From Amycolatopsis solani (GTDB lineage Bacteria > Actinomycetota > Actinomycetes > Mycobacteriales > Pseudonocardiaceae), in the NCBI RefSeq assembly GCF_033441515.1, contig NZ_JAWQJT010000001.1, forward strand, positions 1,736,001 to 1,800,000: a stretch of DNA of 64,000 nucleotides. The letters are read 5' to 3'. The notes below the pieces were generated by a model, which saw only the letters and a list, made by a program, of their open reading frames with translations, ran no database searches and was not told where the DNA came from. The translations under genes were made by a program, and so were the position numbers. Shown here piece by piece: positions 11,365 through 46,398 of the stretch (positions are counted from its first letter, which is position 1; every line of letters starts with the position of its first letter).

Positions 11365-12542
11365 TCGCCGACCTCCTGCGTTCGCTGACCCCGCAGGTCG
11401 TGGCGGCGCTGGTCCGCCGCTACGGCGACTTCGACGCGTGCGAGGACGCGGTCCAGGAGGCGCTGCTGGCGGCGTCCCGGCAGTGGCCGTCGGCCGGGCT
11501 ACCGGACAACCCGAAGGGCTGGCTGATCACGACGGCGTCCCGGCGGCGCATCGAGCAGCTGCGCAGCGAGACGGCCCGCCAACGCCGTGAAGAGGCGGTG
11601 GCCATGGCCGAGCCCCCGGACCCGGAGCCGGTCGGCGTCGACGACACGTTGACGTTGTTGCTGCTGTGCTGCCACCCGTCGCTCTCACGGCCGTCGCAGG
11701 TGGCGCTGACGCTGCGCGCGGTCGGCGGCCTGACGACGGCGGAGATCGCGCGGGCGTTCCTGGTCCCGGAGGCCACGATCGGCCAGCGCATCAGCCGCGC
11801 GAAGCGCTCCCTGCGCGGCGAGCGGTTCGTCGCGTCGGGCTCGCCGGCCCGCGTGCTGGAGGTGCTGTACCTGATCTTCCCGGAGGGCCACACGGCGAGT
11901 TCCGGTGAAGAGGTGAACCGCGTCGAGCTGACCACGGAGGCGATCCGGCTGACCCGCCGGCTGCGTTCGTCGCTGCCGTCGGACGGCGAGGTGACGGGCT
12001 TGCTGGCGTTGATGCTGCTGACGGACGCCCGCCGCCCGGCGCGGGTGTCGGCGTCGGGCGAGCTGGTGCCGCTGGCCGCGCAGGATCGGACGCTGTGGAA
12101 CCAGGGGTACATCGCGGAGGGGGTTTCGCTGATCACGGCCGCGCTGGCATCGTCCCCGGTCGGCCCGTACCAGCTCCAGGCGGCGATCGCGGCGGTGCAC
12201 GCCGAGGCGTCGTCGACGGAGGAGACGGACTGGGCGCAGATCTTGACGTTGTACGACCTGCTGCGCGTGGTGGCGCCGGGCCCGATGGTGACGTTGAACC
12301 GGGTGGTGGCGTTGGCCCAGGTGTCGGGCCCTTCGGCGGGCTTGGCAGAGCTGTCCGCGGCGGCTTCGGACCCGGCGTTGGCTACGCACCACCGGGTCGA
12401 CGCGGTGCGGGCGCACTTGCTGGAGCTGTCGGGTGATGTGGTCGGGGCGCGCGAGGCGTACCTGGCCGCGGCGGGGCGGACGTTGAGCGTGCCGGAGCAG
12501 GGGTACCTGCGGTCCCGGGCGGCCGCACTGGCCGAGGACTGA
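11361..12542 (+). CDS. ECF42-type RNA polymerase sigma factor with C-terminal helical extension
   Basis: This 393-residue protein starts at GTG overlapping the DGPF gene stop. Region sigma-2 is seen at residues 8-65 (DFDACEDAVQEALLAASRQW, then GWLITTASRRRIEQLR). Sigma-4 lies around residues 105-160 (ALTLRAVGGLTTAEIARAF, then EATIGQRISRAKRSL). The remaining 200 or so residues (DUF6596 and TPR-like helices, with IFPEGHTASSGEEVNR and LLALMLLTDARR) are diagnostic of ECF42. In that group the C-terminal extension is needed for activity and no anti-sigma factor is known. A stress-response role is likely; the signal is unknown. Confidence 0.92.
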   Translation: MIADLLRSLTPQVVAALVRRYGDFDACEDAVQEALLAASRQWPSAGLPDNPKGWLITTASRRRIEQLRSETARQRREEAVAMAEPPDPEPVGVDDTLTLLLLCCHPSLSRPSQVALTLRAVGGLTTAEIARAFLVPEATIGQRISRAKRSLRGERFVASGSPARVLEVLYLIFPEGHTASSGEEVNRVELTTEAIRLTRRLRSSLPSDGEVTGLLALMLLTDARRPARVSASGELVPLAAQDRTLWNQGYIAEGVSLITAALASSPVGPYQLQAAIAAVHAEASSTEETDWAQILTLYDLLRVVAPGPMVTLNRVVALAQVSGPSAGLAELSAAASDPALATHHRVDAVRAHLLELSGDVVGAREAYLAAAGRTLSVPEQGYLRSRAAALAED

Positions 12543-12564
12543 GCAGCGCTTCCCGTGACGACAG

Positions 12565-12577
12565 GAATGAGTCATTC
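12565..12577. repeat. Short palindrome GAATGAGTCATTC after the sigma factor gene
   Basis: This 13-base near-perfect palindrome lies 23 bp after the sigma-factor stop. Its core, AATGAGTCATT, is the same as the core of the two long inverted repeats at 34114-34166 and 34458-34510, so it may be a decayed member of that repeat family or a shared transcription-end element. Confidence 0.5.
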
Positions 12578-13436: not shown

Positions 13437-14084
13437 GTGCACATCGACCAATGGCTGGAGGCGATCCCGCCGCTCTCGGTGTACCTGATCGTCGGTGCGG
13501 TGATCATGATCGAGAGCCTCGGCATCCCGCTCCCCGGCGAAATCGTGCTGGTCAGCGCGGCCTTGCTGGCCTCGCAGCACGACACGCTGAGTCCGCTGTG
13601 GATCGCGATCCTCGCCAGTGCCGGCGCCATCATCGGCGACAGCATCGGCTATTTCATCGGGAAAACCGGTGGCCAGCGGCTGTTCGCCTGGGCCGGCCGG
13701 AAATTCCCGAAGCACTTCGGACCGACGCACCTCGCCAACGCCGAACGCATCTTCGACAAGCGCGGCGTGTGGGCCGTCTTCCTCGGCCGCTTCATCGCGT
13801 TCCTGCGCATCCTCGCCGGCCCGCTCGCCGGCTCGCTGCGCATGCACTACCCGAAGTTCCTGCTGGCGAACGCGGCCGGCGGCATCGTCTGGGCGGGCGG
13901 CACCACCGTGCTCGTCTACTACCTCGGCGTCGTCGCCGAAGAGTGGCTCGGCCGGTTCTCCAAGTTCGGCCTGGTCGCCGCGGTCGTCATCGGCATCGTC
14001 GTCTTCTTCGTCATGAAGAAGCGCCTCGGCCGCGCCCATGAGGGCGAAGAAGAGACCCCGAAGCAGGAGGAGACGGCGGCCTAG
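13437..14084 (+). CDS. DedA family (SNARE-associated/VTT) membrane protein
   Basis: This 215-residue membrane protein starts at GTG. It carries DedA hallmarks: ESLGIPLPGEIVL near the N-terminus (the PGE re-entrant motif), GDSIGYFIGKTGG, and the arginine-rich FLGRFIAFLRILAGPLAGSLRM, followed by two membrane segments and a charged tail. DedA proteins act in membrane lipid scrambling or polyprenyl-phosphate recycling and proton-dependent membrane homeostasis. Its stop codon overlaps that of the convergent EamA gene: CTAG at 14081-14084 is TAG on both strands. Confidence 0.92.
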   Translation: MHIDQWLEAIPPLSVYLIVGAVIMIESLGIPLPGEIVLVSAALLASQHDTLSPLWIAILASAGAIIGDSIGYFIGKTGGQRLFAWAGRKFPKHFGPTHLANAERIFDKRGVWAVFLGRFIAFLRILAGPLAGSLRMHYPKFLLANAAGGIVWAGGTTVLVYYLGVVAEEWLGRFSKFGLVAAVVIGIVVFFVMKKRLGRAHEGEEETPKQEETAA

Positions 14085-14977
14085 ACCGTCACCAGCTCCG
14101 GTGCGGGCTTGCGCGTGAACCGCAGCGAGCCCAGCAGCACCCCGGCGATCACGACGGCGGCCGCGCCGATCTCCAGGCCGGTCGGCCGTTCGCCGAGGAA
14201 GACGAACGAGGCCGACAGCCCGACCACCGGCACCAGCAGCGAGAACGGCGACACGACGCCGGCCGGGTTGCGCCGCATCAGCGTCGTCCACAGCCCCGAC
14301 CCGACGACGGTGCCGATCAGCACGACGTAGGTCAGGCCGCCGAGCGCGGTCAGCCCGGTCGGGGTGCCGAGCGTGGTCAGCGAACGCCACTGCGCGGCCG
14401 GGCCCTCCATGACCAGCGAGAGCGCGAACATCGGCAGCGGCGGCACCACCGACATCCACAGCGTGAAGTGCAGTGGGTTGTCCGGCTCGGCCCGGCGCGT
14501 GCTCAGGTTGCCGAACGCCCAGCTCAGCGCGCCCAGCAGGGTCAGCACCATGGGTAGCAGGGCGGCGTGCCCGGACTGCTGCCACGCGATCGCAACCATC
14601 CCGGCGACGGCCAGCGCGATGCCGGCCAGCTGGTGCGGCGTGACGCGTTCACGCAGGAAGACGGCGCCGAGCAGCACCGTGAACGGCGCCGACGCCTGCA
14701 GCACCAGCGACGCGAGCCCGGTCGGCATCCCGGTGTCCATCGCGATGAACAGGAACGCGAACTGCCCGGTGCCGAAGCCGAGGCCGTAACCGAGCAGGTG
14801 CCGCACCTTCACCTTCGGCCACGGCACGAACAGGATCGTCGGCACGGCGATGACGGCGAACCGCAGCGCGCCCGCGAACACCGGCGGGAACTGGCCGAGC
14901 GTGGCGTGGATGGCGAGGAAGTTGAGTCCCCAGAGGACGGCGACGAGCACGGCGAGCAGGCGGTCACGAGCGGGCAT
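14081..14977 (-). CDS. EamA/DMT-family exporter
   Basis: This 298-residue protein has ten hydrophobic segments in two five-helix repeats. The N-terminus, LLAVLVAVLWGLNFLAIHATL, is typical of EamA/RhaT drug-metabolite transporters of the EamA/YdcZ type, many of which export amino acids or metabolites. The LysR regulator gene starts 86 bp away on the other strand, so the exporter is probably controlled by it. The transported compound cannot be read from sequence. Confidence 0.92.
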   Translation of the reverse strand: MPARDRLLAVLVAVLWGLNFLAIHATLGQFPPVFAGALRFAVIAVPTILFVPWPKVKVRHLLGYGLGFGTGQFAFLFIAMDTGMPTGLASLVLQASAPFTVLLGAVFLRERVTPHQLAGIALAVAGMVAIAWQQSGHAALLPMVLTLLGALSWAFGNLSTRRAEPDNPLHFTLWMSVVPPLPMFALSLVMEGPAAQWRSLTTLGTPTGLTALGGLTYVVLIGTVVGSGLWTTLMRRNPAGVVSPFSLLVPVVGLSASFVFLGERPTGLEIGAAAVVIAGVLLGSLRFTRKPAPELVTV

Positions 14978-15063
14978 GCCTCCACTGTGACGGGGGCGAT
15001 CGTGAAGGACCAGCGAGAATATCTGCAGGAACCTTGTAGCGCCGCTTCACATATGCTGGGGCC

Positions 15064-34631: not shown

Positions 34632-35258
34632 ATGGGTGTCGCTGCTGACGAACGCCAGGCCTTGAGCTCCCTCCTCGCCGAACTCGGGCCCAACGCGCCC
34701 ACGTTGTGCGAGGGGTGGACCACCCGTGACCTCGCCGCGCACCTCGTCGTGCGCGAGCACCGTCCCGACGCCGCGCCCGGGATCGTCATCCCGGCTCTCG
34801 CCGGGCACACCCAGAAAGTCCAGGACCGCTACGCCGCCAAGCCGTGGGCGGAGCTGGTCGGGCAGGTCAAAAGCGGCCCGTCCAAGTTCTGGCCGACCTC
34901 GATCGGTCCGCTCGACGAGCTGACCAACACCGCCGAGTTCCTCGTCCACCACGAGGACGTCCGGCGCGCGCAGCCCGGCTGGGAACCCCGGCCCGCCGAC
35001 GGCACGCGGGACGCCGCCGCCTGGAAGTCGGCGAAACAGGCCGCCAAGCTCAACCTTCGCAAGGCGCCCGTCGGTGTCACACTGCGGACGAAAGACGGCC
35101 GCGAAGCCGCCGTCAAGACCGGGCCCGATCCCGTCACCGTCGTCGGCGAACCGATCGATCTGCTGCTGTTCGTGTTCGGCCGCGACGCCACGCACCTCGA
35201 CTTCGAGGGCGACGCGGCCGCCGTCACGAAGCTGCAGGCCGTGAACCGTGGACTCTGA
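34632..35258 (+). CDS. TIGR03085-family protein (maleylpyruvate-isomerase-like/DinB fold)
   Basis: This 208-residue protein shows the actinobacterial mycothiol-dependent or metal-binding DinB-like pattern. It has LCEGWTTRDLAAHLVVREHRPDA with a metal-site histidine, then LVHHEDVRRAQPGW with HHED supplying more ligands, and a C-terminal FGRDATHLDFEG (the usual position is FGRxxAxxVxxxG). Relatives are mycothiol-dependent maleylpyruvate isomerases; this shorter family has no proven reaction. ATG 34632 is the start because upstream sequence is repeat DNA. Its last 35 bp overlap the convergent membrane-protein gene. Confidence 0.88.
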   Translation: MGVAADERQALSSLLAELGPNAPTLCEGWTTRDLAAHLVVREHRPDAAPGIVIPALAGHTQKVQDRYAAKPWAELVGQVKSGPSKFWPTSIGPLDELTNTAEFLVHHEDVRRAQPGWEPRPADGTRDAAAWKSAKQAAKLNLRKAPVGVTLRTKDGREAAVKTGPDPVTVVGEPIDLLLFVFGRDATHLDFEGDAAAVTKLQAVNRGL

Positions 35259-35922
35259 CTGACACCCAGCGCCCCACCGGCAGCGCGACCACGATCGCAG
35301 CCAGCACCAGGTGCACGGCCATGAACGCGACCGCGGCCGGCACGCTCGGCGGGCCGCCGAGGAACACGATCATGTGCGACGCCCACTTCAGCTCGGTCGG
35401 CTTCGAACCCGCCGCCCAGACGTCGTTGAGCGCCCAGAACGTCAGGTCGTTCGCGCCGGAAATCACCACCAGGATCGACGCGATCCCGACCTTGAGCACG
35501 TTCGCCGTCCGCGCGCCGCCGAGGCGGTAGGCCAGCAGCGCGAACAGCACGATGAACGTCGTCACGAACAGCTCGAACTGGTACACCGGCTGGAAGGCGT
35601 CGTCCGAAGACGACGACCGCGCGAACTCCTGCACCCGCATCACCAGCTCGGTGTCCAAATAGGACATGTAGACGAACACGGCGAACACGATCAACGCCGG
35701 CCCGTACCGCCCGCGCGGGAACAGCGAGACCGTCAGCACCGCGAAGACGAACGGGCACAGCTTGAACGCCCAGTCGCCGACGTTGTCCAGCGTCTGGTCC
35801 GGCGGCAGCACCACCATGATCAGCAGCGCGGTGACCACCGCCGGGACGGCGGCCACCAGCCACAGCCACTGCCGCCGCCGGTACAGGGCGGCGAGCGGGC
35901 CGGGCGATTCCAAGAGCGTCAC
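35224..35922 (-). CDS. Membrane protein coupled to the carbamoyltransferase
   Basis: This 232-residue protein has six or seven hydrophobic segments (for example WLWLVAAVPAVVTALLIMVVL and FELFVTTFIVLFALLAYRL) joined by short loops, one of them acidic and serine-rich (ARSSSSDDAFQP). No family is recognised. GTG 35922 overlaps the carbamoyltransferase stop by 4 bp, so the two proteins are made together. A role as membrane partner or acyltransferase/exporter for the carbamoylated product is only a guess from context. Confidence 0.8.
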   Translation of the reverse strand: MTLLESPGPLAALYRRRQWLWLVAAVPAVVTALLIMVVLPPDQTLDNVGDWAFKLCPFVFAVLTVSLFPRGRYGPALIVFAVFVYMSYLDTELVMRVQEFARSSSSDDAFQPVYQFELFVTTFIVLFALLAYRLGGARTANVLKVGIASILVVISGANDLTFWALNDVWAAGSKPTELKWASHMIVFLGGPPSVPAAVAFMAVHLVLAAIVVALPVGRWVSVRVHGSRPAAS

Positions 35923-37718
35923 AGTTCCTTCTCCACCCAGAACGGTCCGAGGGCCAGCGCGTCGACGTCGGTCTTCAGGTAGCACGCGATCGCGTCGGCC
36001 GGGCTGGCCACGATCGGCTCGTTGTTGTCGTTGAACGAGGTGTTGACGACCATCGGCACCCCGGTCAGCTTCTCGAACTCGCTGATCATCCGGTAGTACA
36101 GCGGGTTGTCGGTACGGCTCACAGTCTGCACCCGCGCGGTGCCGTCGACGTGCGTGATCGCCGGGACCTCGGCGCGCTTGTCCGGCAGGACGTCGAACAC
36201 CAGCAGCATCACCGGTGACGGGTAGTCGCTGACGAAGTACTCGCCCGCGCGCTCTTCCAGGCACGAAGGCGCGAACGGCCGGAACGCCTCGCGGTGCTTC
36301 ACCTTCTCGTTCATCCGCGTCTTCGACTCCGGGTCGCGCGGGTCGGCGACGAGCGACCGGTTGCCCAGCGCCCGCGGGCCGCACTCCATCCGGCCCTGCA
36401 CCCAGCCGACGATCTTGCCCTCGGCCACCTTCGCCGCCGTGTGCGCGGCGATGTCGCCGACGCGCTCGTACTCGACGCCGGCGTCCTGCAGCGCCAGCTC
36501 CATCTCGGCCTCGGTGTAGTCCGGGCCGGTGTAGGTGTAGCCGTCGCGCGGGCGCGGCTTGCCGTACTTCGACACCGAGACGTCGAGCGCCGCGCCGAGC
36601 GCGCAGCCGTCGTCGGCCGCCGCGGGCTGGGCGAAGAAGTCCTCGAACGGCGTTTCCAGCAGGATCCGCCCGTTCATGACGCTGTTCAACGCGACCCCGC
36701 CGGCCACGCACAGCCGCTTCGAGCCCGTCTCGCGCTGGAGCCACCGCGCCAGGTGCAGGCCGGCTTCTTCGAGCGTCACCTGCAGCGCGTACGCGATGTC
36801 GCAGTAGTGCTGGGGAACGGGGTTCGCCGCCGTGACGCGGGTTTTCGGCCGCGCGGGACCGAAGGTGTCGGTGAACTTCCGGGACATCACGTGCTTGCCG
36901 GTGCGGTGGTGGCCGAACCAGGACAGGTCCAGCTCGAACCCGCCGTCGTCGCCGAGGTGGATCAGCTGCTTGAACGCGTCGACGTAGGTGTCTTCGCCCA
37001 GCGGCGCGAGGCCCATGATCTTGCCTTCGTCGCGGGTCGGGTAGAAGCCGAGGTAACCGGTGACGCCGGCGTACATCGCGCCCAGCGAGTGCGGGAACTT
37101 GATCCGCCGCAGGTCCACGATCCGGTTGCCGCGGCCGTGCGCGAGGTAGGTCGCCGTGCCGTCGCTGCCGATGCCGTCGAAGGTGAGCACCGCCGACTCG
37201 TCCCACGGCGAGATGAAGTACCCGCTGGCCGCGTGCGCGCGGTGGTGGTCGACGAGGTGCGTCTTGAACTTCGTCGGCCCGGTCCAGCCGACGGCCGCCT
37301 TGACGTCGTCGGCCAGCGTGTAGGACCGCTTGATGTGCGCGAGGACCGCGCCGCCGACGTGGTAGTCGTCGTGGCCCTTCCCGCCGCCGGTCCGGAACGT
37401 GTCGACCATGCCCGCCGACTTGCCGCCCTCGTCGCCGTTCGCGTTGCGGAAGACGTCGAGCGTGCCGGGGAAGTACCGCGCGAACACCTTGGCCGCGTGG
37501 ATGCCTTCCTTCCAGCGCTGCCAGTAGTAGGCCACGTGGTCGACGTCCGCGAGGGTGATCCCGGCGCGCTCCAGGCAGAACTTGATGGCCTCGGCGGGAA
37601 AGCCGCCGTCGTGCTTCACGCGGGTGAAGCGCTCCTCCTCGGCGAACGCGACGATCTCGCCGTCGCGCACGAGTGCCGCCGCCGAGTCGTGCACCCGGCT
37701 GATGCCCAGTACGTACAT
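35919..37718 (-). CDS. Carbamoyltransferase, NodU/CmcH family
   Basis: This 599-residue protein has the two-domain layout of NodU/CmcH/TobZ O-carbamoyltransferases. The Kae1-like N-terminal domain has VLGISRVHDSAAALV, the metal histidines in LVDHHRAHAASGYF, and VLTFDGIGSDGTATY. The YrdC-like C-terminal domain has GRMECGPRALGNRSLVADPR and VNTSFNDNNEPIV. Such enzymes activate carbamoyl phosphate with ATP and transfer carbamoyl to a hydroxyl of a sugar or natural product. The surrounding glycosyltransferase, ATP-grasp and GNAT genes suggest carbamoylation of an envelope or secreted glycoconjugate. It precedes the membrane-protein gene with a 4-bp overlap. Confidence 0.94.
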   Translation of the reverse strand: MYVLGISRVHDSAAALVRDGEIVAFAEEERFTRVKHDGGFPAEAIKFCLERAGITLADVDHVAYYWQRWKEGIHAAKVFARYFPGTLDVFRNANGDEGGKSAGMVDTFRTGGGKGHDDYHVGGAVLAHIKRSYTLADDVKAAVGWTGPTKFKTHLVDHHRAHAASGYFISPWDESAVLTFDGIGSDGTATYLAHGRGNRIVDLRRIKFPHSLGAMYAGVTGYLGFYPTRDEGKIMGLAPLGEDTYVDAFKQLIHLGDDGGFELDLSWFGHHRTGKHVMSRKFTDTFGPARPKTRVTAANPVPQHYCDIAYALQVTLEEAGLHLARWLQRETGSKRLCVAGGVALNSVMNGRILLETPFEDFFAQPAAADDGCALGAALDVSVSKYGKPRPRDGYTYTGPDYTEAEMELALQDAGVEYERVGDIAAHTAAKVAEGKIVGWVQGRMECGPRALGNRSLVADPRDPESKTRMNEKVKHREAFRPFAPSCLEERAGEYFVSDYPSPVMLLVFDVLPDKRAEVPAITHVDGTARVQTVSRTDNPLYYRMISEFEKLTGVPMVVNTSFNDNNEPIVASPADAIACYLKTDVDALALGPFWVEKEL

Positions 37719-37734: not shown

Positions 37735-38985
37735 TCAGTGCCGGCGGACCAGGCGCCGCAGCACGGCCGCCTTCACCGCGAGCGCGAGGACGAGCGCGGC
37801 GAACCCGCCGACCGGTCCGAGGACGGGGACGAGCAGCACCGCGCCCACGGCGGTGGCGACGAGCGAAACGACGGCGGTGCCGGACGTCAGCGTCAGCACC
37901 TTGCTGTTGGTGTTTTCGATCAGGAAGCCCGCGTACAGCCCGGTCGCGTACAGCGCCGTCTCGACGAGCACGAGCACCCCGAGGACGACGTAGGCGTCTT
38001 CCGCCGCGAGGAAAGCGCGGGTCCCGGGGATGGCGAGACCCGCGCCGAGCAGGAGGACCACGGCGATCCCGGCGCGTTCGACCAGCCGCAGCAGCGCGCC
38101 CGCCCGCGCCCGCCCGGCCGCCGCGCCCGTACCGCGCATCCGCCGCGACGCCGCCGGCTGGTGCAGCTTGAGCTGGTAGTACAGCAGCGAGCAGAACGCG
38201 CTCGACACCAGCAGCGCCAGGTAGAACGGGCCGCTGTCGGTGGTCCGGCCGGACAGCGCGAGCACCGCGAACACGACCGACGTCGAGATGACGTCGAGCA
38301 GCTCGGTCAGGCCGAGCAGGACCGTGCTCCGGCCGAACGCGGGCAGCAGCCGGTGCCCCGGTACCCCGCCGCCGCGCAGCCACGGCCGGGGCAGCAGGGC
38401 GACCGACGTACCGAGGATGACGAGGAGCCCGCCCAGCAGCACCGCCAAGTGCGTCTCCGGTGGCCAGCGCACCGCCCACGTCACACACGTCACGACGCCG
38501 ACCACGACCGAGCCGGCGGCGAACGCCAGTGCGTCCAAAGTGGACTTCTCGCGCAACCGGTGCAGGCCGGACACCGTCATCAGCAGCCCGCCGGAGATCG
38601 ACCAGGCCGCCGCCGTCAGGTACAGCGCCGCGTCCGACCGCGGTGCCACCACCAGCGCGGCGGCCGTCGCGGCCAGCACCGCCAGCACCGGCACCGCGGC
38701 GAGCCGGACCGCGAGCGCCGCGACGGCGTCCCGGGTCCGGTGCAGCCGCGGCAGGCTCTTCAGCGCGGACTTCTCCGCGGCGGCCGGCACGAAGTTGAGC
38801 CAGGTCATCAGGCCGAGCGCGTTCGCGAAGCGCCCGTAGTCGCGGGCGCCCCACGCCGTGATCAGGACCAGCCCCATCACCTGCACCGACAGCCGGAACA
38901 CGCCCCGGCCGGCGAGCAGGCGCAGCACCACCGCGGGCCGTGGCGGCGCCACGACCGGTGCGGCGGCGACCGAAGGCCCCGTCAC
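37735..38985 (-). CDS. Polysaccharide flippase-like membrane protein
   Basis: This 416-residue membrane protein has about twelve hydrophobic segments. Its N-terminus (VVLRLLAGRGVFRLSVQVMG, then WGARDYGRFANALGLMTWLNF) is reminiscent of Wzx/MurJ-type lipid-linked oligosaccharide flippases. GTG 38985 overlaps the ATP-grasp stop by 4 bp, and the carbamoyltransferase starts 16 bp after its stop. The likely cargo is a polyprenyl-linked sugar or glycopeptide made by the neighbouring genes; this is inferred. Confidence 0.82.
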   Translation of the reverse strand: MTGPSVAAAPVVAPPRPAVVLRLLAGRGVFRLSVQVMGLVLITAWGARDYGRFANALGLMTWLNFVPAAAEKSALKSLPRLHRTRDAVAALAVRLAAVPVLAVLAATAAALVVAPRSDAALYLTAAAWSISGGLLMTVSGLHRLREKSTLDALAFAAGSVVVGVVTCVTWAVRWPPETHLAVLLGGLLVILGTSVALLPRPWLRGGGVPGHRLLPAFGRSTVLLGLTELLDVISTSVVFAVLALSGRTTDSGPFYLALLVSSAFCSLLYYQLKLHQPAASRRMRGTGAAAGRARAGALLRLVERAGIAVVLLLGAGLAIPGTRAFLAAEDAYVVLGVLVLVETALYATGLYAGFLIENTNSKVLTLTSGTAVVSLVATAVGAVLLVPVLGPVGGFAALVLALAVKAAVLRRLVRRH

Positions 38986-40223
38986 GGCAGGGGTACCGCC
39001 ATGTCCTGGTCGTGCAGCAGGAACTTCAGCGTGCCGCGCACGGCGTTCTCCGCGCTGAGCAGCTCCGGCACCGAGTCCGCGGTGAGCACCACGTACCCGA
39101 GCTTGTGCCCCGCCTGCTCGTAGGGCCGGACGAACGAACCCTCGTCGGCGAACAGGTGCAGGCCCACCAGCCCGGGCAGCGCGCGCACGTCGGCCACACC
39201 GTCCACCCGGGACAGGTGCCCGCCGCGGTCGGACGCCAGGATGTGCACCAGCGTCGGCTTCGGCTCGTGCAGGTCCAGCCGCACCTCGTCGCCGGTGGCG
39301 GCGGCGATCCCGGCCGCGATCAGGTCGGCGCCGTGGCAGTGCGCGATCGCTTCCGCCAGCCCGTTGCCGCCCATCCGGGCGCCCATCTCGATGAGGTAGA
39401 GCCGCCCGTCGCGGCCGAGCACGGCGTCGAGCGTCAGCGGTCCGGTCCGGTAGCCGAGCTCGGTGCAGATCTGGTCGAGGGCTTCGATCAGGCTGAGCTC
39501 GACGTCGGCGGGCAGCTCGGCGGGCAGCAGGTGCGACGACGTCACGAAGAACGGCGGCGGCGTGAGCACCCGCTCGGTCACGGCGTGGAAGACGATCCGG
39601 CCGTCGACGACGAGCGCCTCGATGGTGAAGTGCGAGCCGTCCAGGTGCTCCTCCACGACCAGGCGGCCGGACGGCGAGAACGCCAGCGACTCGGTGAACG
39701 CCGTGGTCAGCCGGCCCGGTCCCGCGCACGAGACGACCCCGCGGCTGCCCGAGGAGTCGACCGGCTTGACCAGCGCCGGGAAGCGCAGCTGCTGGGCGGC
39801 GTGGACGAGCTCCGGGCCGGGACGGCCGTCGACGCTGCGGTAGCTCGGCAGGCCCAGGTGATCGCACAGCGCGCGGAACACCGCCTTGTCCGTCGACGCC
39901 TCCACCGCGTACCGCGGCAGGGGATCGGGCAGGCCCCAGTGGCGGGTCAGCCACGCCAGCGCCGGCAGGCCGACGTCGCTGGCCGGGCAGAGCACGCCCG
40001 CGAGGTCGCGGCGGCCCTCCAGTGCCGCCGCGATCTGCTCCGGTGCCCGCACGCTGACCTGCAGGAACTCGTCCGCGTACGCCACCGCGGGCGCGGTGGG
40101 CCGGACGTCGACGCAGAGCGTGCGGAACCCCAGCTCCCGCGCCCGCTCGTAGGTGCTGACCGAACCGTCCGCGCCCCCCAGGATCACCAGGGTTCTCGCG
40201 GGGTCCTTCTTCGAACTGGTCAC
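38982..40223 (-). CDS. ATP-grasp ligase
   Basis: This 413-residue protein has a Rossmann-like pre-ATP-grasp domain (TLVILGGADGSVSTYERARELG) and an ATP-grasp fold: the helix ASTDKAVFRALCDHLGLPSY, the ATP lysine in FPALVKPVDSSGSRGVV, the strand VEEHLDGSHFTIEALVVDG, and the metal site LIEMGARMGGNGLAEAIAHC. Such enzymes form an acyl phosphate and couple it to an amine, as in amino-acid ligases. The substrate is unknown. It sits between the GT2 and flippase-like genes, with 4-bp overlaps on both sides, so amino-acid decoration of a sugar-lipid is a reasonable guess. Confidence 0.92.
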   Translation of the reverse strand: MTSSKKDPARTLVILGGADGSVSTYERARELGFRTLCVDVRPTAPAVAYADEFLQVSVRAPEQIAAALEGRRDLAGVLCPASDVGLPALAWLTRHWGLPDPLPRYAVEASTDKAVFRALCDHLGLPSYRSVDGRPGPELVHAAQQLRFPALVKPVDSSGSRGVVSCAGPGRLTTAFTESLAFSPSGRLVVEEHLDGSHFTIEALVVDGRIVFHAVTERVLTPPPFFVTSSHLLPAELPADVELSLIEALDQICTELGYRTGPLTLDAVLGRDGRLYLIEMGARMGGNGLAEAIAHCHGADLIAAGIAAATGDEVRLDLHEPKPTLVHILASDRGGHLSRVDGVADVRALPGLVGLHLFADEGSFVRPYEQAGHKLGYVVLTADSVPELLSAENAVRGTLKFLLHDQDMAVPLP

Positions 40224-41230
40224 GCCGAAACGCCTTTCCCCAGGTGCACATCGATGAGCCGGGGACCCGCCGGGTCCGCCGGGGTGAAGAGCCGGTCCTC
40301 GGCGTCGACGACGACGTTCGCTTCCCGGACGTAGAACTGCCGTGGCCGCGGCTGGCCCGCGCCGACCACGACGAGGTAGCGCACGGTCAGCGACGCCACC
40401 AGCAGCAGCACCGCGAGCAACGCGAACAGCAGCGTGGCGGTGACCCCGGCGCCGAGCAGGCCGAACGCCGCCGCGCCGCCGGCGAGCACCGCGATCCCCG
40501 CGGCCAGCAGGGCCGTCGCGGACGCCGCCGTCGTGAGCCGCCGGGTGAACCCGACGAAGAGTTCGATGGCGTGCGAAGCCAGGAACCCGAAGCCCACTTT
40601 GGACTCGCCGCGTTCGCGCGCCCGGTGTGCGACCTGGACGCAGGTGTACCGGCTGGTCAGCCGGGGCACGGTGGCGAGGAAGTACGGCGTGCCCAGCCGC
40701 AGGTCGACGATCTTGCGGGCCAGTTCCGCGCGGACCAGCCGGAACGCCGTGGCGCCCGGCGGGATCTCGATGCGCAGCACGCGCCGGCCGAGGAAGTGGA
40801 ACGCGGCGGTGCCCCACCGCCGCAGCCGCGGGTCCTGGCGGTTGGTGCGGACGCCGAACACCGCGTCGTTGCCCAGCTCGGCCGCCGCGACGAGCTTCTC
40901 CGCCTCGGCGGCGGGGAACTGCTGGTCGGCGTCGACGTGCAGGACCCACGGCAGCGACGCGTAGCGGTAGCCGGCCGAGAAAGCGGCTTCGAAGCCGAAG
41001 TTCCGAGAAAAGGACAAATACCGCACGCGCGCGTCCGCGGCCGCGAGCGCGCGGATCTTGTCCAGCGTTCCGTCGGTGCTCCCGTCATCGACGTAAAACA
41101 GTTCCAGTGAATAGTGACCTAGTTCGTTGGTTATTTCCCGATAGGACGGTTCGACGTTCTCGACTTCGTTGAAGCACGGAATGACCACGGAGAGTCCACT
41201 GTGGGCAGGGCCGGGAAATGGGGTGGTCAT
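40220..41230 (-). CDS. Family 2 glycosyltransferase with C-terminal membrane helices (DPM1/GtrB type)
   Basis: This 336-residue protein has a GT2 catalytic domain: LSVVIPCFNEVENVEPSY, FYVDDGSTDGTLDK, and the metal-binding HVDADQQFPAAEAEKL. Two membrane segments follow at about residues 235-290 (ALLAAGIAVLAGGAAAFG, TLLFALLAVLLLVASLTVRY). This is the layout of GtrB/DPM-like enzymes, which move a sugar from a nucleotide donor to polyprenyl phosphate. It is the first gene of the minus-strand set and overlaps the ATP-grasp gene by 4 bp. Confidence 0.93.
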   Translation of the reverse strand: MTTPFPGPAHSGLSVVIPCFNEVENVEPSYREITNELGHYSLELFYVDDGSTDGTLDKIRALAAADARVRYLSFSRNFGFEAAFSAGYRYASLPWVLHVDADQQFPAAEAEKLVAAAELGNDAVFGVRTNRQDPRLRRWGTAAFHFLGRRVLRIEIPPGATAFRLVRAELARKIVDLRLGTPYFLATVPRLTSRYTCVQVAHRARERGESKVGFGFLASHAIELFVGFTRRLTTAASATALLAAGIAVLAGGAAAFGLLGAGVTATLLFALLAVLLLVASLTVRYLVVVGAGQPRPRQFYVREANVVVDAEDRLFTPADPAGPRLIDVHLGKGVSA

Positions 41231-41500: not shown

Positions 41501-42259
41501 ATGTGGAATCTGGGGGCGGGGGTGGCGTGGCGCGCTGCCCACGCGCGGGCGGTGCGCTCGGCGTTCGCGACGGTGCCGTTCTACCGCGAGCGCTGGGCGC
41601 TCGACGGCCGGGAGGACCCGGTCGTGGTGCCCGGGCGCACCGGGACGAACGGCGGCGCGGCACCCCTCGCGGAAGCCGTGCGCAAACTCGTCGACCTCGT
41701 GCCGCTCGCCGGCGGCGCCCGGCAGCCCGAGCCCGCGCGTGGGCTCGGGCGCGTCCTGCGGACGGCTCGCCGTCCCGGTCCCGGCAGCCTGGTCGTCCTG
41801 CTGGGGCCCGACGACCTGCGCCCGCCCGCCGACCTGCCGAAGGGGGTGCGGGGCTGCGTCGCCGATCCGGACGCGCCGAGCGCGGCGGTGCTGCGCGAAC
41901 TCGCCGCGGTGCTGGGCCGGGGCCACCGCGTGCTCGCGGTCGGCGACGACAAGGCGCTCGCGGCGTTCATCGAAGACCACCGCGTCGAAGCCGTGCCGCA
42001 CCGCGAGCTCGACTCGCTGGACGCCGGCCCGTACGGCGTGCTGCACGATCCGGTGCTCGGGTACCTCGGCGCGCTGGGCGGCTGCGGGCGGTGGCACCTC
42101 GACTGGCCGCACGTCTACGCGCGCCCGACGGCCGCGGGGCTCGCGTTCACGTTGCTGCGCCAGGCTTCCCCGCGGTTCGTGGACGTCGTCCCGGCCGGCG
42201 GGGTGCGGGGCGAGATCGCGTTCTGCCCGCGGCACGGCACCCCGGTCGTCCTGACATGA
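41501..42259 (+). CDS. Degenerate acyl-activating (ANL/PaaK-like) protein
   Basis: This 252-residue protein is not clearly assigned. Its N-terminus, RSAFATVPFYRERW, resembles the start of phenylacetate-CoA-ligase/F390-synthetase-like adenylating enzymes. Its C-terminus (LGYLGALGGCGRWHLDWPHV) resembles their late core after the ATP-binding part. The usual ATP P-loop (T/S-S/T-G-rich) is not seen and the protein is about half the usual length. It may be a shortened, catalytically inactive remnant or a partner protein. It overlaps the first GNAT gene by 4 bp (ATGA), so it belongs to the GNAT operon. Confidence 0.6.
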   Translation: MWNLGAGVAWRAAHARAVRSAFATVPFYRERWALDGREDPVVVPGRTGTNGGAAPLAEAVRKLVDLVPLAGGARQPEPARGLGRVLRTARRPGPGSLVVLLGPDDLRPPADLPKGVRGCVADPDAPSAAVLRELAAVLGRGHRVLAVGDDKALAAFIEDHRVEAVPHRELDSLDAGPYGVLHDPVLGYLGALGGCGRWHLDWPHVYARPTAAGLAFTLLRQASPRFVDVVPAGGVRGEIAFCPRHGTPVVLT

Positions 42260-43287
42260 GGTTTTCGGTCCACGACCCCCGCGCCGACCCGGCGCCCGCG
42301 GGGTGGGCGGAGTTCTCGCGGGCCGCGCGGCTGCACCCGGTGTGGGACTACGGGGTGATGGGCCTCGAAGCCTGGGGCGCCCGCAACCCGCAGCTGCTGG
42401 TCGTCGCGGCCGAGCGGGACGCGCCCGTCGCCGCGGTGTCCGTGCTGGTCTGCCGGCCCCGGCTGGCGCCGCGGTTCGCGCCGCGGCCCGGGAAGCGCTT
42501 GCTGCGCCCGTTCTGGGCCGAGGTCTGCCAGCCGTGGCTGAGCGGCTACCCGGGGATCGCGTTCGCGCCGGGTGTCGGCGACCGAGCCGGTTTGGTTCGC
42601 GAGTTCGAGCGGGAGCTGGGCCGCCGTCTCGGCCCCGGCCTGCTCGGCGTCGTCCACCGAGCGCTCGGCGAAGACCTCGCGATCGGCCTCGGCGGCCGCG
42701 GCCGGCTCGTCAAGCGGGTGGATCCGGTGGCCGTGCTGGAAAACCGGTTCGCGTCCGAAGAGGACTGGATCGCGTCGCTGTCGAAGTCGCGGCGGGCCGG
42801 GTTGCGGCGGCAGCGGCGCCGGCTCGCCGAAGACCCTTCGCTGGTGATCCGGGGCGGGGCGGGCCGCACCGACCTCGACGGCGCCGAGCTGGCCGGGCTG
42901 ATCCAGGCGCACCGCGAGCGGTACGGGCGGCTCGCGCTGGACACCCGCACGATGCCGTCGGCGGGGTTCCTCGACCGGTTCGTCCGGCGGCCGGACGTGC
43001 ACACCCTGACCTACACCGACACCGGGGGGAAGCTGCTCGCGGTGCAGACGATGCTCGACCACCCGGACACCCCCGTCCTGCAGCACTGGGCCGCGTTGCC
43101 GCCGGACGCGGGCGGGAAGAAGTGGCTGTACTTCGACTCGTACGTGCGCGCGGTGCGGTTCACCGCGAAGCGCGGCGCCCGGGAACTGTCGGCGGGGCGC
43201 GGCATGATCGACTTGAAGCAGGAGCTGGGGTTCCGGCCCCGGCCGGTCTACACGGCCGCCGTGCCGAGGCCGGTGCTGGGCCGGTGA
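42256..43287 (+). CDS. GNAT/FemX-like acyltransferase, paralogue 1
   Basis: This 343-residue protein has the double-domain GNAT layout of PF13480/FemABX-type acyltransferases. The N-terminal part has FSVHDPRADPAPAGWAEF, then the SGYPG turn and GPGLLGVVHRA. The C-terminal part has IQAHRERYGRLALDTR, the strand LLAVQTMLDHPDTPVLQHWA, and LYFDSYVRAVRF (likely acyl-donor region). Family members transfer acyl or aminoacyl groups to cell-wall or polysaccharide amines. It is the first of four tandem paralogues. Its last 27 bases match those of paralogue 2 at 25 of 27 positions. Confidence 0.85.
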   Translation: MRFSVHDPRADPAPAGWAEFSRAARLHPVWDYGVMGLEAWGARNPQLLVVAAERDAPVAAVSVLVCRPRLAPRFAPRPGKRLLRPFWAEVCQPWLSGYPGIAFAPGVGDRAGLVREFERELGRRLGPGLLGVVHRALGEDLAIGLGGRGRLVKRVDPVAVLENRFASEEDWIASLSKSRRAGLRRQRRRLAEDPSLVIRGGAGRTDLDGAELAGLIQAHRERYGRLALDTRTMPSAGFLDRFVRRPDVHTLTYTDTGGKLLAVQTMLDHPDTPVLQHWAALPPDAGGKKWLYFDSYVRAVRFTAKRGARELSAGRGMIDLKQELGFRPRPVYTAAVPRPVLGR

Positions 43288-44342
43288 AGACCGTGACCGC
43301 GGTGTCGCAAGTGGACATCCACGACCCCCGCACCGATCCGCCGCCGGACGGCTGGGCCGCGTTCCGCGCCCGGTGCCTACCGCCGGTGTGGGACTACGAG
43401 CTGCTGCGGCGCGAGGCGTGGCTGGCGAAGAACCCGCCGGTGCTCGCCGTCGTCCGGCAGGGCTCCTCGGTCGTCGGCGCGTTGTCGGTGATGGTGTGCC
43501 GCGGCTGGGGTGCGGGCACCTTCGGGCCGGTCTCCGGTGGCCGGTTCCGGCCGCGCTGGGCCGAGGTCTACCTCCCGTTGCTGAGCGGCTATCCGGCGTG
43601 CGTGTTCGACGACGACTTCACCGAGCGGCGCACGGCGATCCGGCAGTTCGAACGGGCCCTGCGCGAGTACGTCGGCCCGGGCCTGCTCGGCGTGGTCTAC
43701 CGGGCGATGAACCCCGAGCTGGTGCCCGCGCTGGCCGGGCGGGCGCGGATCAGCCGGGAGATCGACCCGGCCGCCGTGCTGGTCAACCGCTATTCCACTG
43801 TGGACGAATGGGCGGCGGCGCTCGCCCCGGACGTCCGCCGGTACCTGAACCCGGACGTCGCCACGGAAGCCGCCGCCGGGCGCACCGACCTCGATCCGCA
43901 CGAGCTGGCCGTGCTGCTCAACGTCCACCGCGCGCGGCAGGACGACCGCGCGTGGGCCGGCGGCCAGCGCTCGCGCGTCGGCGGGCTGCACCTCGACACC
44001 CGCAGCCCGATCGCCCCGGCCTACCTCGACGTGCTCGTCCGGCGGCCGGACGTGATCACGCGGACCTACCGCGACGGCGACGGCGGGTTGCTCGGCTTCA
44101 ACACGATGATCGACCACCCGGACGGCGCGGCGGTGCACCACTGGGCCGCCCTCCCGAGCGCCGAAGGGGGCCGAAAGGGTCTCTATGTCGACTGCTACGC
44201 CCGGTGCGTGGCCCACGTGATCGCCGCGGGACGGCCGGAGCTGACCGCCGGGCGCGCGATGCTGCCGGAGAAGGCGTCGCTGGGCTTCGGCACGCGAAGC
44301 CTCTTCTCGGTGGCCGTCCCGAGGCCGGTGCTGGGCCGATGA
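43284..44342 (+). CDS. GNAT/FemX-like acyltransferase, paralogue 2
   Basis: This 352-residue paralogue starts at GTG overlapping the previous stop by 4 bp. It shares with paralogue 1 the marks VDIHDPRTDPPPDGWAAF, LLSGYPACVF, GPGLLGVVYRAM, LLGFNTMIDHPDGAAVHHWA and the C-terminal VPRPVLGR. The middle third has diverged, with an extra segment around RAWAGGQRSRVGG. Acyl transfer to an envelope or exported glycan is inferred. Different middle regions suggest the paralogues use different donors or positions. Confidence 0.85.
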   Translation: MKTVTAVSQVDIHDPRTDPPPDGWAAFRARCLPPVWDYELLRREAWLAKNPPVLAVVRQGSSVVGALSVMVCRGWGAGTFGPVSGGRFRPRWAEVYLPLLSGYPACVFDDDFTERRTAIRQFERALREYVGPGLLGVVYRAMNPELVPALAGRARISREIDPAAVLVNRYSTVDEWAAALAPDVRRYLNPDVATEAAAGRTDLDPHELAVLLNVHRARQDDRAWAGGQRSRVGGLHLDTRSPIAPAYLDVLVRRPDVITRTYRDGDGGLLGFNTMIDHPDGAAVHHWAALPSAEGGRKGLYVDCYARCVAHVIAAGRPELTAGRAMLPEKASLGFGTRSLFSVAVPRPVLGR

Positions 44343-45382
44343 CCTGGACCGTCCGGGTGCTCGACCCGCGCACCGACCCTGAACCCGCCGGCTGGGCCGC
44401 CTTCCTCGAAGCCCAGCAGGCCCCGCTGACCTGGGACTACGGCCTGTTGTGCACGGAGTCGCGGTGCTCACGCAGCCCTTACCTGCTCACCGTCGTCAGC
44501 GACGGCGAAGAGCTCGTCGCCGCCGTGCTCGCGATGGTCTGCCACCCCGGCGGCTCGGCCGCGCCCGGACCGGTCGGCGGCGTCGCGCGGTGGACGCCGC
44601 GCTGGCTGGAGGTCCAGCACGCCTGGCTGTCGTGCTACCCGGCGTGGCTGTTCGCCGAAGCGCTCGACGCCGCCGCGCGCCGCGAGATCCTGCGCCGGTT
44701 CGAACGCGCCGCCTGCCGGCGCACCGGCCCGGGCTGCCTCGGCGTCGTGTACCGCGCGGCCACCCCGGACACCGCCGGGCTGGTGGCCGGGCGCGGCCGG
44801 CTCGTCCGGGACATCCAGCCCGCACTGGTGCTGGAGAACACCTTCGGCGACCTCGACGACTGGCTCGCGTCGTTGAGCCGCAACCGCCGCTCGAGCCTGC
44901 GCGGCCAGATCCGCAAGATCGCCGCCGACCCCGGGGTGGTCGTCCGCGAGGGAACCGCGCGCGACGACCTCGATCCCGAAGAGCTGGCGGCGATGCTGCG
45001 GGCCCACCGCGAGACCAAGGGCCCGGTGAAGTTCGACCAGCGCGGCCCGGTCACCGCCGAGTACCTCGGCGAGCTCGTCCGCCGCCCCGACGTCGTCACC
45101 ACGACCTACCACGACGCCGACGGGCGGCTGCTCGCCTTCACCGATCTGCTCGACCACCCGGTGATGCCCCTGCACCAGCACTGGGCCGCGCTGCCACCCG
45201 ACGGCGGCCGGCCGAAGCACCTCTACTTCGACGTCGTCGTGCGAGGAGTGCGGCACATGATCGAGCACAACCGGAAGTTCCTGTCGCTGGGCCGCGGGGT
45301 CACCGACCTCAAGGCGTCGCTGGGGTTCAGCCCGAGCCCGATGACCGGCGTGGTCGTGCCGAGGCCGGTGACGCGGTGGTGA
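44339..45382 (+). CDS. GNAT/FemX-like acyltransferase, paralogue 3
   Basis: This 347-residue paralogue starts at ATG overlapping paralogue 2 by 4 bp. Shared marks are VLDPRTDPEPAGWAAF, SCYPAWLF, GPGCLGVVYRAA, the conserved core DDWLASLSRNRRSSLRGQIR, LLAFTDLLDHPVMPLHQHWA and VVPRPVTRW. The residues around RSSLRG and LLAF are candidates for acyl-CoA or aminoacyl-tRNA contact by comparison with the GNAT fold; this is inferred. It overlaps paralogue 4 by 4 bp. Confidence 0.85.
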   Translation: MTWTVRVLDPRTDPEPAGWAAFLEAQQAPLTWDYGLLCTESRCSRSPYLLTVVSDGEELVAAVLAMVCHPGGSAAPGPVGGVARWTPRWLEVQHAWLSCYPAWLFAEALDAAARREILRRFERAACRRTGPGCLGVVYRAATPDTAGLVAGRGRLVRDIQPALVLENTFGDLDDWLASLSRNRRSSLRGQIRKIAADPGVVVREGTARDDLDPEELAAMLRAHRETKGPVKFDQRGPVTAEYLGELVRRPDVVTTTYHDADGRLLAFTDLLDHPVMPLHQHWAALPPDGGRPKHLYFDVVVRGVRHMIEHNRKFLSLGRGVTDLKASLGFSPSPMTGVVVPRPVTRW

Positions 45383-46398
45383 TCGACGTGCTCGACCCGC
45401 GCCACGACGCGGAACCGGCGTACTGGACCGCGTTGCGCGCGCGGGCCGGCCTGCGCGCGGACTGGAGCTGGGCGGTGCTCGCCACCCAGGCGTGGGCCGC
45501 GCGGACGCCGCAACCGGTGACGGTGCTGCGCGAAGGCGCCGAACCGACCGGGGTGGTCAGCGCCGCGTGGGTCACCGGCCGGACGCGGCGGAACCGGTTC
45601 GCCGGCCCGGGCCGGGGCCGGTTCGGCGGCCTCGACGTCCGCGGGCCCGGCGCGGGTTCGCAGCCGGGCTGGTGGTTCGCCGACGCGGGTGGCGACGGCG
45701 GCGTCACCCGTCTGCTCGAGGCGTACGTCCCGGCCATGCGGGCCGAACTCGGCCGCGGCCTGCGCGGTCTGCTGCTGCGGCAGGTCGGCGAGCCGGGCGT
45801 ACCCGCCGTCGACGGCCGGTTCCGGCTGGTGCGGCGGACCGAGGACGTCGCGGTGCTCGACGTCGCCGCGTTCGGCTCCCGCGACGACTGGATGAACTCG
45901 CTGGCCCGCAAGCGGAAGCAGAACCTGCGCAAGATCTTCCGGACCTTCGACGCCGACCCGTCGGTCGAGGTGCGGTTCGTGCCGGGGAAGGACGCCGACC
46001 CGGTCGCCGTCGCCGAGGTGCTGCGGTGCAACGAGCGCAAGCACCACGACGTGCCGATCGTGCCGCTGCCGCACTTCACCGGCTACCTGGCGGCGCTGCT
46101 GCGCCAGCCCGACGTCTCGGTGATCGAGTACCGCGACACCCGCACCGGACGGCTGATCGCGCTGGCGACCCTGCTCGACCACCCGGACCTGCCGATCGCC
46201 CGGCACTGGGGCGCCCTGCCCCCGGAGGACGGCGGCCGCCCGAACCTGTACTTCCACTTCTACGGCGAGGCGGTGCGCTGGGCGATCGCGAACGGCCGCG
46301 CGTCGGTGGTGTTCGGCAAGAAGATGACGGAGATGAAGGCGACCCTCGGCGCGCGGCTCGTCCCGCAGTTCGCGGCGGCCGTCCCGCTGTGGTGTTAG
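45379..46398 (+). CDS. GNAT/FemX-like acyltransferase, paralogue 4
   Basis: This 339-residue paralogue starts at GTG and is the most diverged. It keeps VIDVLDPRHDAEPAYW, SRDDWMNSLARKRKQNLRKIF, RTGRLIALATLLDHPDLPIA and RHWGALPPEDGGRPNLYF, but lacks the clean SGYP turn and the VPRPV ending (it ends AAAVPLWC). The basic RKRKQNLRKIF stretch could bind a nucleotide or tRNA. It is the last gene of the plus-strand operon. Confidence 0.83.
   Translation: MIDVLDPRHDAEPAYWTALRARAGLRADWSWAVLATQAWAARTPQPVTVLREGAEPTGVVSAAWVTGRTRRNRFAGPGRGRFGGLDVRGPGAGSQPGWWFADAGGDGGVTRLLEAYVPAMRAELGRGLRGLLLRQVGEPGVPAVDGRFRLVRRTEDVAVLDVAAFGSRDDWMNSLARKRKQNLRKIFRTFDADPSVEVRFVPGKDADPVAVAEVLRCNERKHHDVPIVPLPHFTGYLAALLRQPDVSVIEYRDTRTGRLIALATLLDHPDLPIARHWGALPPEDGGRPNLYFHFYGEAVRWAIANGRASVVFGKKMTEMKATLGARLVPQFAAAVPLWC

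Follow-up and report, generated by a model that had tools for sequence, protein, structure and literature searches.

Among the closest described systems, the FemABX transferases (Weissella FemX, S. aureus FemA and FemX) already use several paralogues in a row, FemX, FemA and FemB dividing one peptide bridge between them; stepwise use of paralogues is thus not new in itself. The locus considered here, a block of four FemX-like genes behind a truncated ANL-type gene, lies in a 64,000-nucleotide stretch of the Amycolatopsis solani genome (contig NZ_JAWQJT010000001.1, positions 1,736,001 to 1,800,000; G+C 70.6%), henceforth the window. It differs from FemABX systems in having no PF02388 match and in coupling as many as four copies, of which one has its helix reduced, to each other and to a pseudo-ANL gene; and the peptidoglycan stem is an unlikely acceptor, since the neighbours encode a family 2 glycosyltransferase (GT2), a flippase-like protein and an ATP-grasp ligase. 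The aminoacyl-lipid synthases of the MprF/LPG_synthase_C type are fused to membrane domains, unlike the proteins here; PF09924 occurs at three other places in the same genome. ArnC/GtrB-type pathways resemble the locus in their GT2 with two transmembrane (TM) segments and flippase-like partner, to which an amino-acid ligase and FemX-like transferases are here added. Among the examples considered from a review, enzymes of the Sba18/Sbb17 kind appear one to a pathway, with two in dehydrophos (PMC12945691); compared with those examples, the present locus has up to four in tandem, together with the polyprenyl-type GT2 and the flippase-like gene. Our preferred reading, held with slightly less than even confidence, is that genes 2 to 5 of the block (g2-g5) encode FemX-type, probably aminoacyl-tRNA-dependent enzymes that would carry out stepwise aminoacylation of a polyprenyl-linked sugar, later exported. 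What the computations show directly are the folds of g4 and g1, the conserved residues, the conservation of the cluster and the grouping of the paralogues.

The block occupies positions 41501-46398 of the window, on the plus strand: g1 (41501-42259; 252 residues) encodes a truncated PaaK-type ANL domain, and g2 (42256-43287; 343 residues), g3 (43284-44342; 352), g4 (44339-45382; 347) and g5 (45379-46398; 339) encode FemX-like double-GNAT proteins. Direct reading of the DNA gives the junction overlaps, in order, as ATGA, GTGA, ATGA and GTGA, so that the five plus-strand genes with 4-bp overlaps described in an earlier, sequence-only reading of this DNA are borne out by coordinates and junction letters alike. 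Protein identity is 49% between g2 and g3, 48% between g2 and g4 and 46% between g3 and g4; g5, the most divergent of the four, is 36-37% identical to the others. The motifs which that reading took to be common to g2-g5 are real, though unevenly kept: the DPR...W start, the GPG..G block, LDHP and HWAALP are all clear in g2-g4, with the variants HHWAALPS and IDHPD in g3, and g5 has the versions DPRHDAEPAYW, GRGLRGLLLRQ, LDHPD and RHWGALPP. The VPRPV ending was rightly assigned to three copies, being present in g2, g3 and g4 only. The 3' ends of these genes, which code for it (43250-43287, 44305-44342 and 45355-45382), have much of their DNA in common; they are candidate tracts for recombination, through which copies could be gained and lost. 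Membership of PF13480 held for g2 and g4 (22.3 and 27.2 bits; cut-off 22) and failed for g5 (18.0 bits) and for g3, with which the Pfam scan gave no match of any kind; g5 was also under the cut-off of FemAB_like (21.6 bits against 27), and an NCBIfam scan of g1-g5 returned nothing. When the complete assembly (10.28 Mb, 4 contigs) was searched with g2, the matches were these four places only, and six other PF13480 places were not recovered as relatives; the block is therefore not a chance grouping.

Structure models were made of g4 and g1. That of g4 is a confident double GNAT with the FemX-like arrangement of two domains in one chain, and comparison with solved structures supports for this protein the GNAT/FemX-like fold anticipated from the sequence. 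FemX, Sba18, FemA and MprF head the solved structures when these are ranked by VIA-align Z, with coenzyme A (CoA)-type tandem GNATs behind them. Because the structures at the head of this ranking are aminoacyl-tRNA-dependent transferases, stepwise aminoacylation is favoured over the stepwise acylation machine originally suggested: the stepwise envelope-glycan idea survives, the acyl donors give way to aminoacyl donors as the better fit, and the donor may or may not differ from copy to copy, as was also proposed. In an alignment of 70 GNAT rows, Lys325 and Gly318 (g4 numbering) are present in 70 and Trp282 in 69. The spacing of Trp and Lys is 43 residues, as against 45 in DhpH-C, and Lys325 is a candidate for the place of the catalytic lysine (FemX Lys305, DhpH-C Lys329); in DhpH-C, according to the review, Lys329 is essential and Trp284, Asn325 and Phe328 contribute (PMC12945691). 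On GNAT domain 2, a basic helix (176-196) of 20-24 residues carries a net charge of +3 to +8 in the 58 non-g3 rows (+7 in g2 of the window, which retains Lys and Trp, and +6 in g5). The invariant Lys, the near-invariant Trp and this helix appear consistent with a FemX-type mechanism. The CoA pyrophosphate loop [QR]xxGx[GA] is found in the N-domain of 0/70 rows and in the C-domain of 4/70 (L041_g2, L047_g2, L051_b, L059_b). Tentatively, an aminoacyl donor carried on tRNA is a better fit than an acyl donor.

Gene 3 departs from its sisters. Its helix segment is of 13-19 residues with a net charge of -4 to +3 (median 0) in all 12 g3 rows, that of the window (13 residues, +1) included; even the top of this range, reached in L043 (+3), is no more than the minimum of the non-g3 rows. 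Yet the Lys is kept in 12/12 g3 rows and the Trp in 11/12, both being present in the window, and against the loci L040, L043 and L044 the identity of g3 is 61-65%, compared with 54-58% for g2, 50-54% for g4 and 55-65% for g5. A decaying pseudogene is ruled out by this conservation across loci. The protein is thus under constraint, yet probably does not bind the tRNA acceptor stem in the manner of FemX. Lacking the positively charged domain-2 helix, it is not classed as a FemX-type enzyme, and it may not be an ordinary transferase; since the Lys is retained and the basic helix is not, g3 would probably be a partner or specificity subunit, or would obtain its aminoacyl group by another route.

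The 252-residue model of g1 has the fold of a PaaK-type ANL N-terminal domain, aligned to residues 13..323 of the 426-residue PaaK1 chain, and the degenerate ANL-like gene of the sequence-only reading is accordingly a truncated PaaK-type N-domain. Unlike the PaaK-type phenylacetate-CoA ligases it has neither P-loop nor C-terminal domain, and no SSGTTGKP-like stretch occurs in 19 aligned rows (the alignment leaves out a number of near Amycolatopsis sequences and, from L057, the first copy, which is broken); judged on the model, g1 should therefore be unable to adenylate by the known mechanism. Comparison with PaaK and cluster-ANL profiles gave probabilities of only 1-19% (the PaaK profile uses 8 of 12 input sequences, drawn from 16 fetched), so that the link to ANL enzymes rests on the structure model; Pfam and PDB sequence searches yielded no match beyond chance. 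Residues C195, H199, C242 and H245 are invariant and form a possible zinc site. Decay was rejected for this gene too, on account of its conservation, and we take it as probably a non-adenylating ANL remnant that would serve as partner of the transferase to which it is coupled.

The peculiarities of g1 and g3 invite an explanation in which only some copies are enzymatic, g1 and g3 being non-catalytic members of a hetero-oligomer whose subunits are dosed equally by the 4-bp overlaps; it is compatible with either of the rival views of donor and product weighed below. The short, weakly charged helix of a protein as conserved as its sisters fits this explanation, as does the persistence of g1, short of P-loop and C-terminal domain but with 140 database relatives. 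So does the tight coupling: 53 of the 54 junctions examined in other loci (the window lying outside the count) are 4-bp overlaps, even after copy losses, the sole non-overlap being a gap of ~127 bp at the missing g3 of L038. But the universal Lys of g3 speaks against a non-catalytic role, g2, g3 or g4 is missing in some genomes, and the structure models are of single proteins. We regard it as possible though somewhat doubtful.

Several observations weigh against a tRNA-borne donor. By Foldseek E-value, the g4 model matches MprF (1.3e-11), FemX (1.6e-11) and, at rank 4, the acetyl-CoA-type tandem GNAT 2wpw_B (1.8e-11), which leaves the aminoacyl-tRNA and CoA classes unseparated. PF02388 (FemAB) is absent from the hmmscan of the paralogues and from the genome; the paralogues are not members of that family, and we infer their FemAB-like working. 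Against PDB sequences the GNAT profile found chance matches only. A weak alignment with the FemAB profile (probability 8.5%) does not match Lys325 to the FemAB 'FK' lysine, which we take to be the place of FemX Lys305, and comparison with the LPG_synthase_C profile reached a probability of only 13.7% (profiles from 16/20 loci for FemAB, 18/20 for LPG_synthase_C and 16/20 for MshD, the four below the cut-off being left out). The suggested link to tRNA consists of the fold, modelled for one paralogue, the basic helix and two residues, of which the Lys is a putative counterpart of FemX Lys305; and basic 'R..LRR' helices occur in PF13480 proteins generally. In public records these proteins go by names such as 'GNAT family N-acetyltransferase' or 'predicted N-acyltransferase'. 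Finally, PaaK-type ANL enzymes that look intact stand in L125, L129, L130 and L131, the four clusters most remote among those read, and their presence would be consistent as well with a donor of the acyl-AMP or acyl-CoA type.

The Foldseek level of 2wpw, the intact ANL enzymes and the public names, together with the PF13480 scores of g2 and g4 and the match of 21/47 aligned members to PF13480 at E<=0.01, are what recommends the view of the sequence-only reading, that g2-g5 are PF13480/BioF2-like enzymes transferring acyl groups from acyl-CoA or acyl-AMP to N or O of an amino sugar or polysaccharide, with g1 as relic of the acyl supplier. Given the order of structures by VIA-align, we consider it rather unlikely, and proceed with stepwise aminoacylation of a lipid-linked sugar as the preferred reading.

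The five-gene block is one half of a larger conserved actinobacterial cluster, the other half of which is divergently placed, on the minus strand. Nearest the block is the GT2 gene (40220-41230; PF00535), whose product, with two C-terminal TM segments, resembles polyprenyl-phosphate sugar transferases; its nearest structures are ArnC (9bhc, 5.3e-22) and sll0501 (5ekp, 6.7e-22), presumably GtrB. The GT2 domain, the C-terminal TM segments and the relatives of known function place it with GtrB/ArnC, and its predicted acceptor is a lipid. Next comes an ATP-grasp ligase of the L-amino-acid-ligase type (LAL_C2; 38982-40223; PF18603, PF13535), matching the L-amino acid ligase BL00235 (3vot, 8.5e-18) and phosphoribosylglycinamide synthetase (4dim, 6.1e-19). 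The polytopic membrane protein that follows (37735-38931), a probable lipid-linked glycan flippase of the Wzx/MOP kind, has no direct Pfam match; it was recognised by hhalign with a PF01943-type (Polysacc_synt) profile (probability 94.9, E 4.5e-8, 367 columns; the profile uses 11 of 14 such proteins, their reading frames not individually checked). Beyond it lies a NodU-type O-carbamoyltransferase (35919-37718; PF02543/PF16861) with matches to novobiocin carbamoyltransferase (9s2t, 2e-100) and also to GdmN and TobZ, its gene overlapping by 4 bp that of a 7-TM protein of an unnamed family (35224-35922, from the gene call and TM count). In an 11-row alignment this family has an invariant Arg, Asp, Asn and two His, and its L125 member gives E 4.2e-81; an assignment to UPF0542 (6/11 rows, best 3e-5) was not accepted. 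It is perhaps a pathway enzyme or a channel, a role in the pathway being argued by its retention even in the distant cluster L125. The GT2, ATP-grasp, Wzx-like and NodU neighbours together support as probable the envelope-glycan context assumed at the outset.

In the genus, the GNAT profile matched 35/80 genomes and left 45/80 without a match: 31 have adjacent copies (19 four, one of these interrupted by a contig end, and 12 three) and 4 have weak matches only. The block sought in other actinobacteria is thus conserved and ordered, and its alternative, unrelated single genes scattered among relatives, is ruled out by these adjacent copies. With the g1 profile, 40/297 genomes of the family matched; in a second family of the order 10/150 did so, 4 strongly and 6 (3.9e-5 to 8.8e-4) at a level judged to be chance, and in a sample of the class 3/394, the source genome included, the third match (7.5e-4, internal stop) being due to chance. 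The 25 named loci come from Amycolatopsis, Labedaea, Saccharomonospora, Prauserella, Actinokineospora, Actinomadura and Nonomuraea; the closest found, in Amycolatopsis eburnea, has block proteins 94-97% identical. Where public names are given, g1 is mostly 'hypothetical protein' and the transferases are 'GNAT family N-acetyltransferase' or 'hypothetical', and no description of the cluster was found in these names or in open-access full text, a limit that keeps this from being proof.

By tblastn, the ATP-grasp gene is present in 25 of the 25 loci, GT2 in 24, the Wzx-like gene and g1 in 23 each and NodU in 15. Contig ends may account for the misses in L051, L055 and L058, but in L050 the space expected to hold the Wzx-like gene, from NodU to ATP-grasp, measures only ~30 bp. 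The two halves are divergent in 15/15 NodU-bearing loci, as in the window. Gene calls show the loci without NodU (L042, L051-L059) to be rearranged, and Pfam scans of chosen genes found in them an NAD epimerase, a SnoaL-like protein, second g1 copies, a further GNAT lineage (gX) and a zinc-ribbon orphan family. The last (250-300 residues), beside GNAT copies at L042:15162-16076, L055:8112-8996, L056:12079-12843 and L059:5862-6728, gave no convincing match in a Pfam scan of three members. Both types of cluster, the NodU type with g3, g4 and g5 (L050) and the rearranged NodU-less type with g5 and gX (L057), occur in the one genome of Actinokineospora spheciospongiae EG49. In L132, two g1-GNAT-GNAT units, one joining g1 to g4/g5-like copies and the other to g2/g3-like ones, surround a single GT2/Wzx/NodU set; it carries two ATP-grasp ligases, a layout hinting that ligases are paired with transferase units.

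Two related loci carry further genes. L125, from the second family of the order, retains GNAT, g1, Wzx-like, 7-TM, ATP-grasp (41%) and GT2 (38%) genes, and there (11811-12566 and 13761-15008, both minus strand) a HalD-family gene (Halogenase D, PF23169, 5e-100) adjoins the GT2 gene on the same strand, at its upstream side, with an amino acid permease further upstream; a halogenated amino acid in its product is possible. L128 (1-11271, plus strand) has the g1-GNAT pair alone, the rest of the cluster not being present in the 20 kb read. Ahead of the pair are an LAL-type ATP-grasp (26% to that of the window), an aspartate decarboxylase and genes of 1584 and 72 residues that by eye resemble a non-ribosomal peptide synthetase and MbtH; g1-GNAT may travel as a two-gene module. 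The amino-acid chemistry near these two, each a single locus, supports an amino-acid substrate.

The history of the copies was read from a maximum-likelihood tree with midpoint root, built on the 70 rows (4 from the window, 66 from 23 loci); the tree and the residue counts omit the near-copies L046 and L049 and partial copies in L051, L055 and L058. Clean clades across genera are formed by g3 (12 rows, 100/100) and g5 (19 rows, 100/99), and the 12 g4 rows group with support of 93/87; the 13 g2 rows join g3 in a clade of 25 (100/99), several g2 rows of other genera not separating from g3. Since g5 joins Nonomuraea and Actinomadura copies, and g2/g3/g4 together are sister to other copies from those genera, at least two lineages (g5-type and g2/g3/g4-type) would predate the split of these families, with g2, g3 and g4 arising by later tandem duplication; gX is a third old lineage. 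Among the 25 loci, g3 is absent from L037 and L038, g4 from L041 and L047, and g2 from L045, L046, L048, L049 and L050.

The common set comprises GT2, ATP-grasp, flippase-like protein, 7-TM protein, g1 and between one and four FemX-like enzymes, and it points to a lipid-linked sugar decorated with amino acids. As to donor, acceptor, order of steps, export and the parts played by g1 and g3, we infer the following course. GT2 would place a sugar on polyprenyl phosphate; g2-g5 would attach amino acids to it in succession, each specialised copy probably handling one position or one amino acid, as tandem duplication and specialisation, and the precedent of FemX/FemA/FemB, suggest; the ATP-grasp ligase would join a further amino acid or acid at the cost of ATP; NodU would O-carbamoylate the product; and the Wzx-like protein would flip it over the membrane, the 7-TM protein acting in some membrane step. 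Against this course, neither a membrane sugar-polymer transferase nor any other enzyme that would use a lipid-linked sugar could be recognised among the genes of the cluster. Alternatively, the product would be a small molecule for secretion and no part of the envelope, built on streptothricin-like logic as a carbamoylated amino-sugar peptide; the membrane proteins would export it, and the FemX-like enzymes would work in the manner of Sba18/Sbb17 or Orf11. This would suit the place of Sba18/Sbb17 among the best structural matches, the likeness of NodU to antibiotic carbamoyltransferases, the patchy occurrence (31/80 in the genus, 40/297 in the family) and the HalD-like halogenase and aspartate decarboxylase of L125 and L128, but it is improbable, as the commonest parts (GT2 with TM segments, Wzx-like flippase, 7-TM protein) suit lipid-linked glycans and nothing in the cluster of the window could be recognised as a regulator, a resistance gene or a core scaffold enzyme.

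A bolder form of the preferred reading is a dedicated, tRNA-fed, non-ribosomal line for a lipid-linked glycopeptide of the envelope, in which up to four coupled FemX-like enzymes build a short peptide of fixed sequence on a carbamoylated sugar linked to polyprenyl, with the re-tooled g3 and the pseudo-adenylation protein g1 as obligatory partners. We think this unlikely, if not strongly so; no such partner arrangement was found described for any FemX-type system in the open-access literature. On the preferred reading itself, the cluster would combine FemX-type aminoacylation, ATP-grasp amino-acid ligation and polyprenyl-phosphate sugar export to yield a glycoconjugate of a new kind, displayed at the surface or secreted. 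Natural variation in copy number, with the helix-reduced g3, offers a direct test of the division of labour among FemX-like paralogues, and the cluster likewise tests the role of a pseudo-ANL protein beside a transferase.

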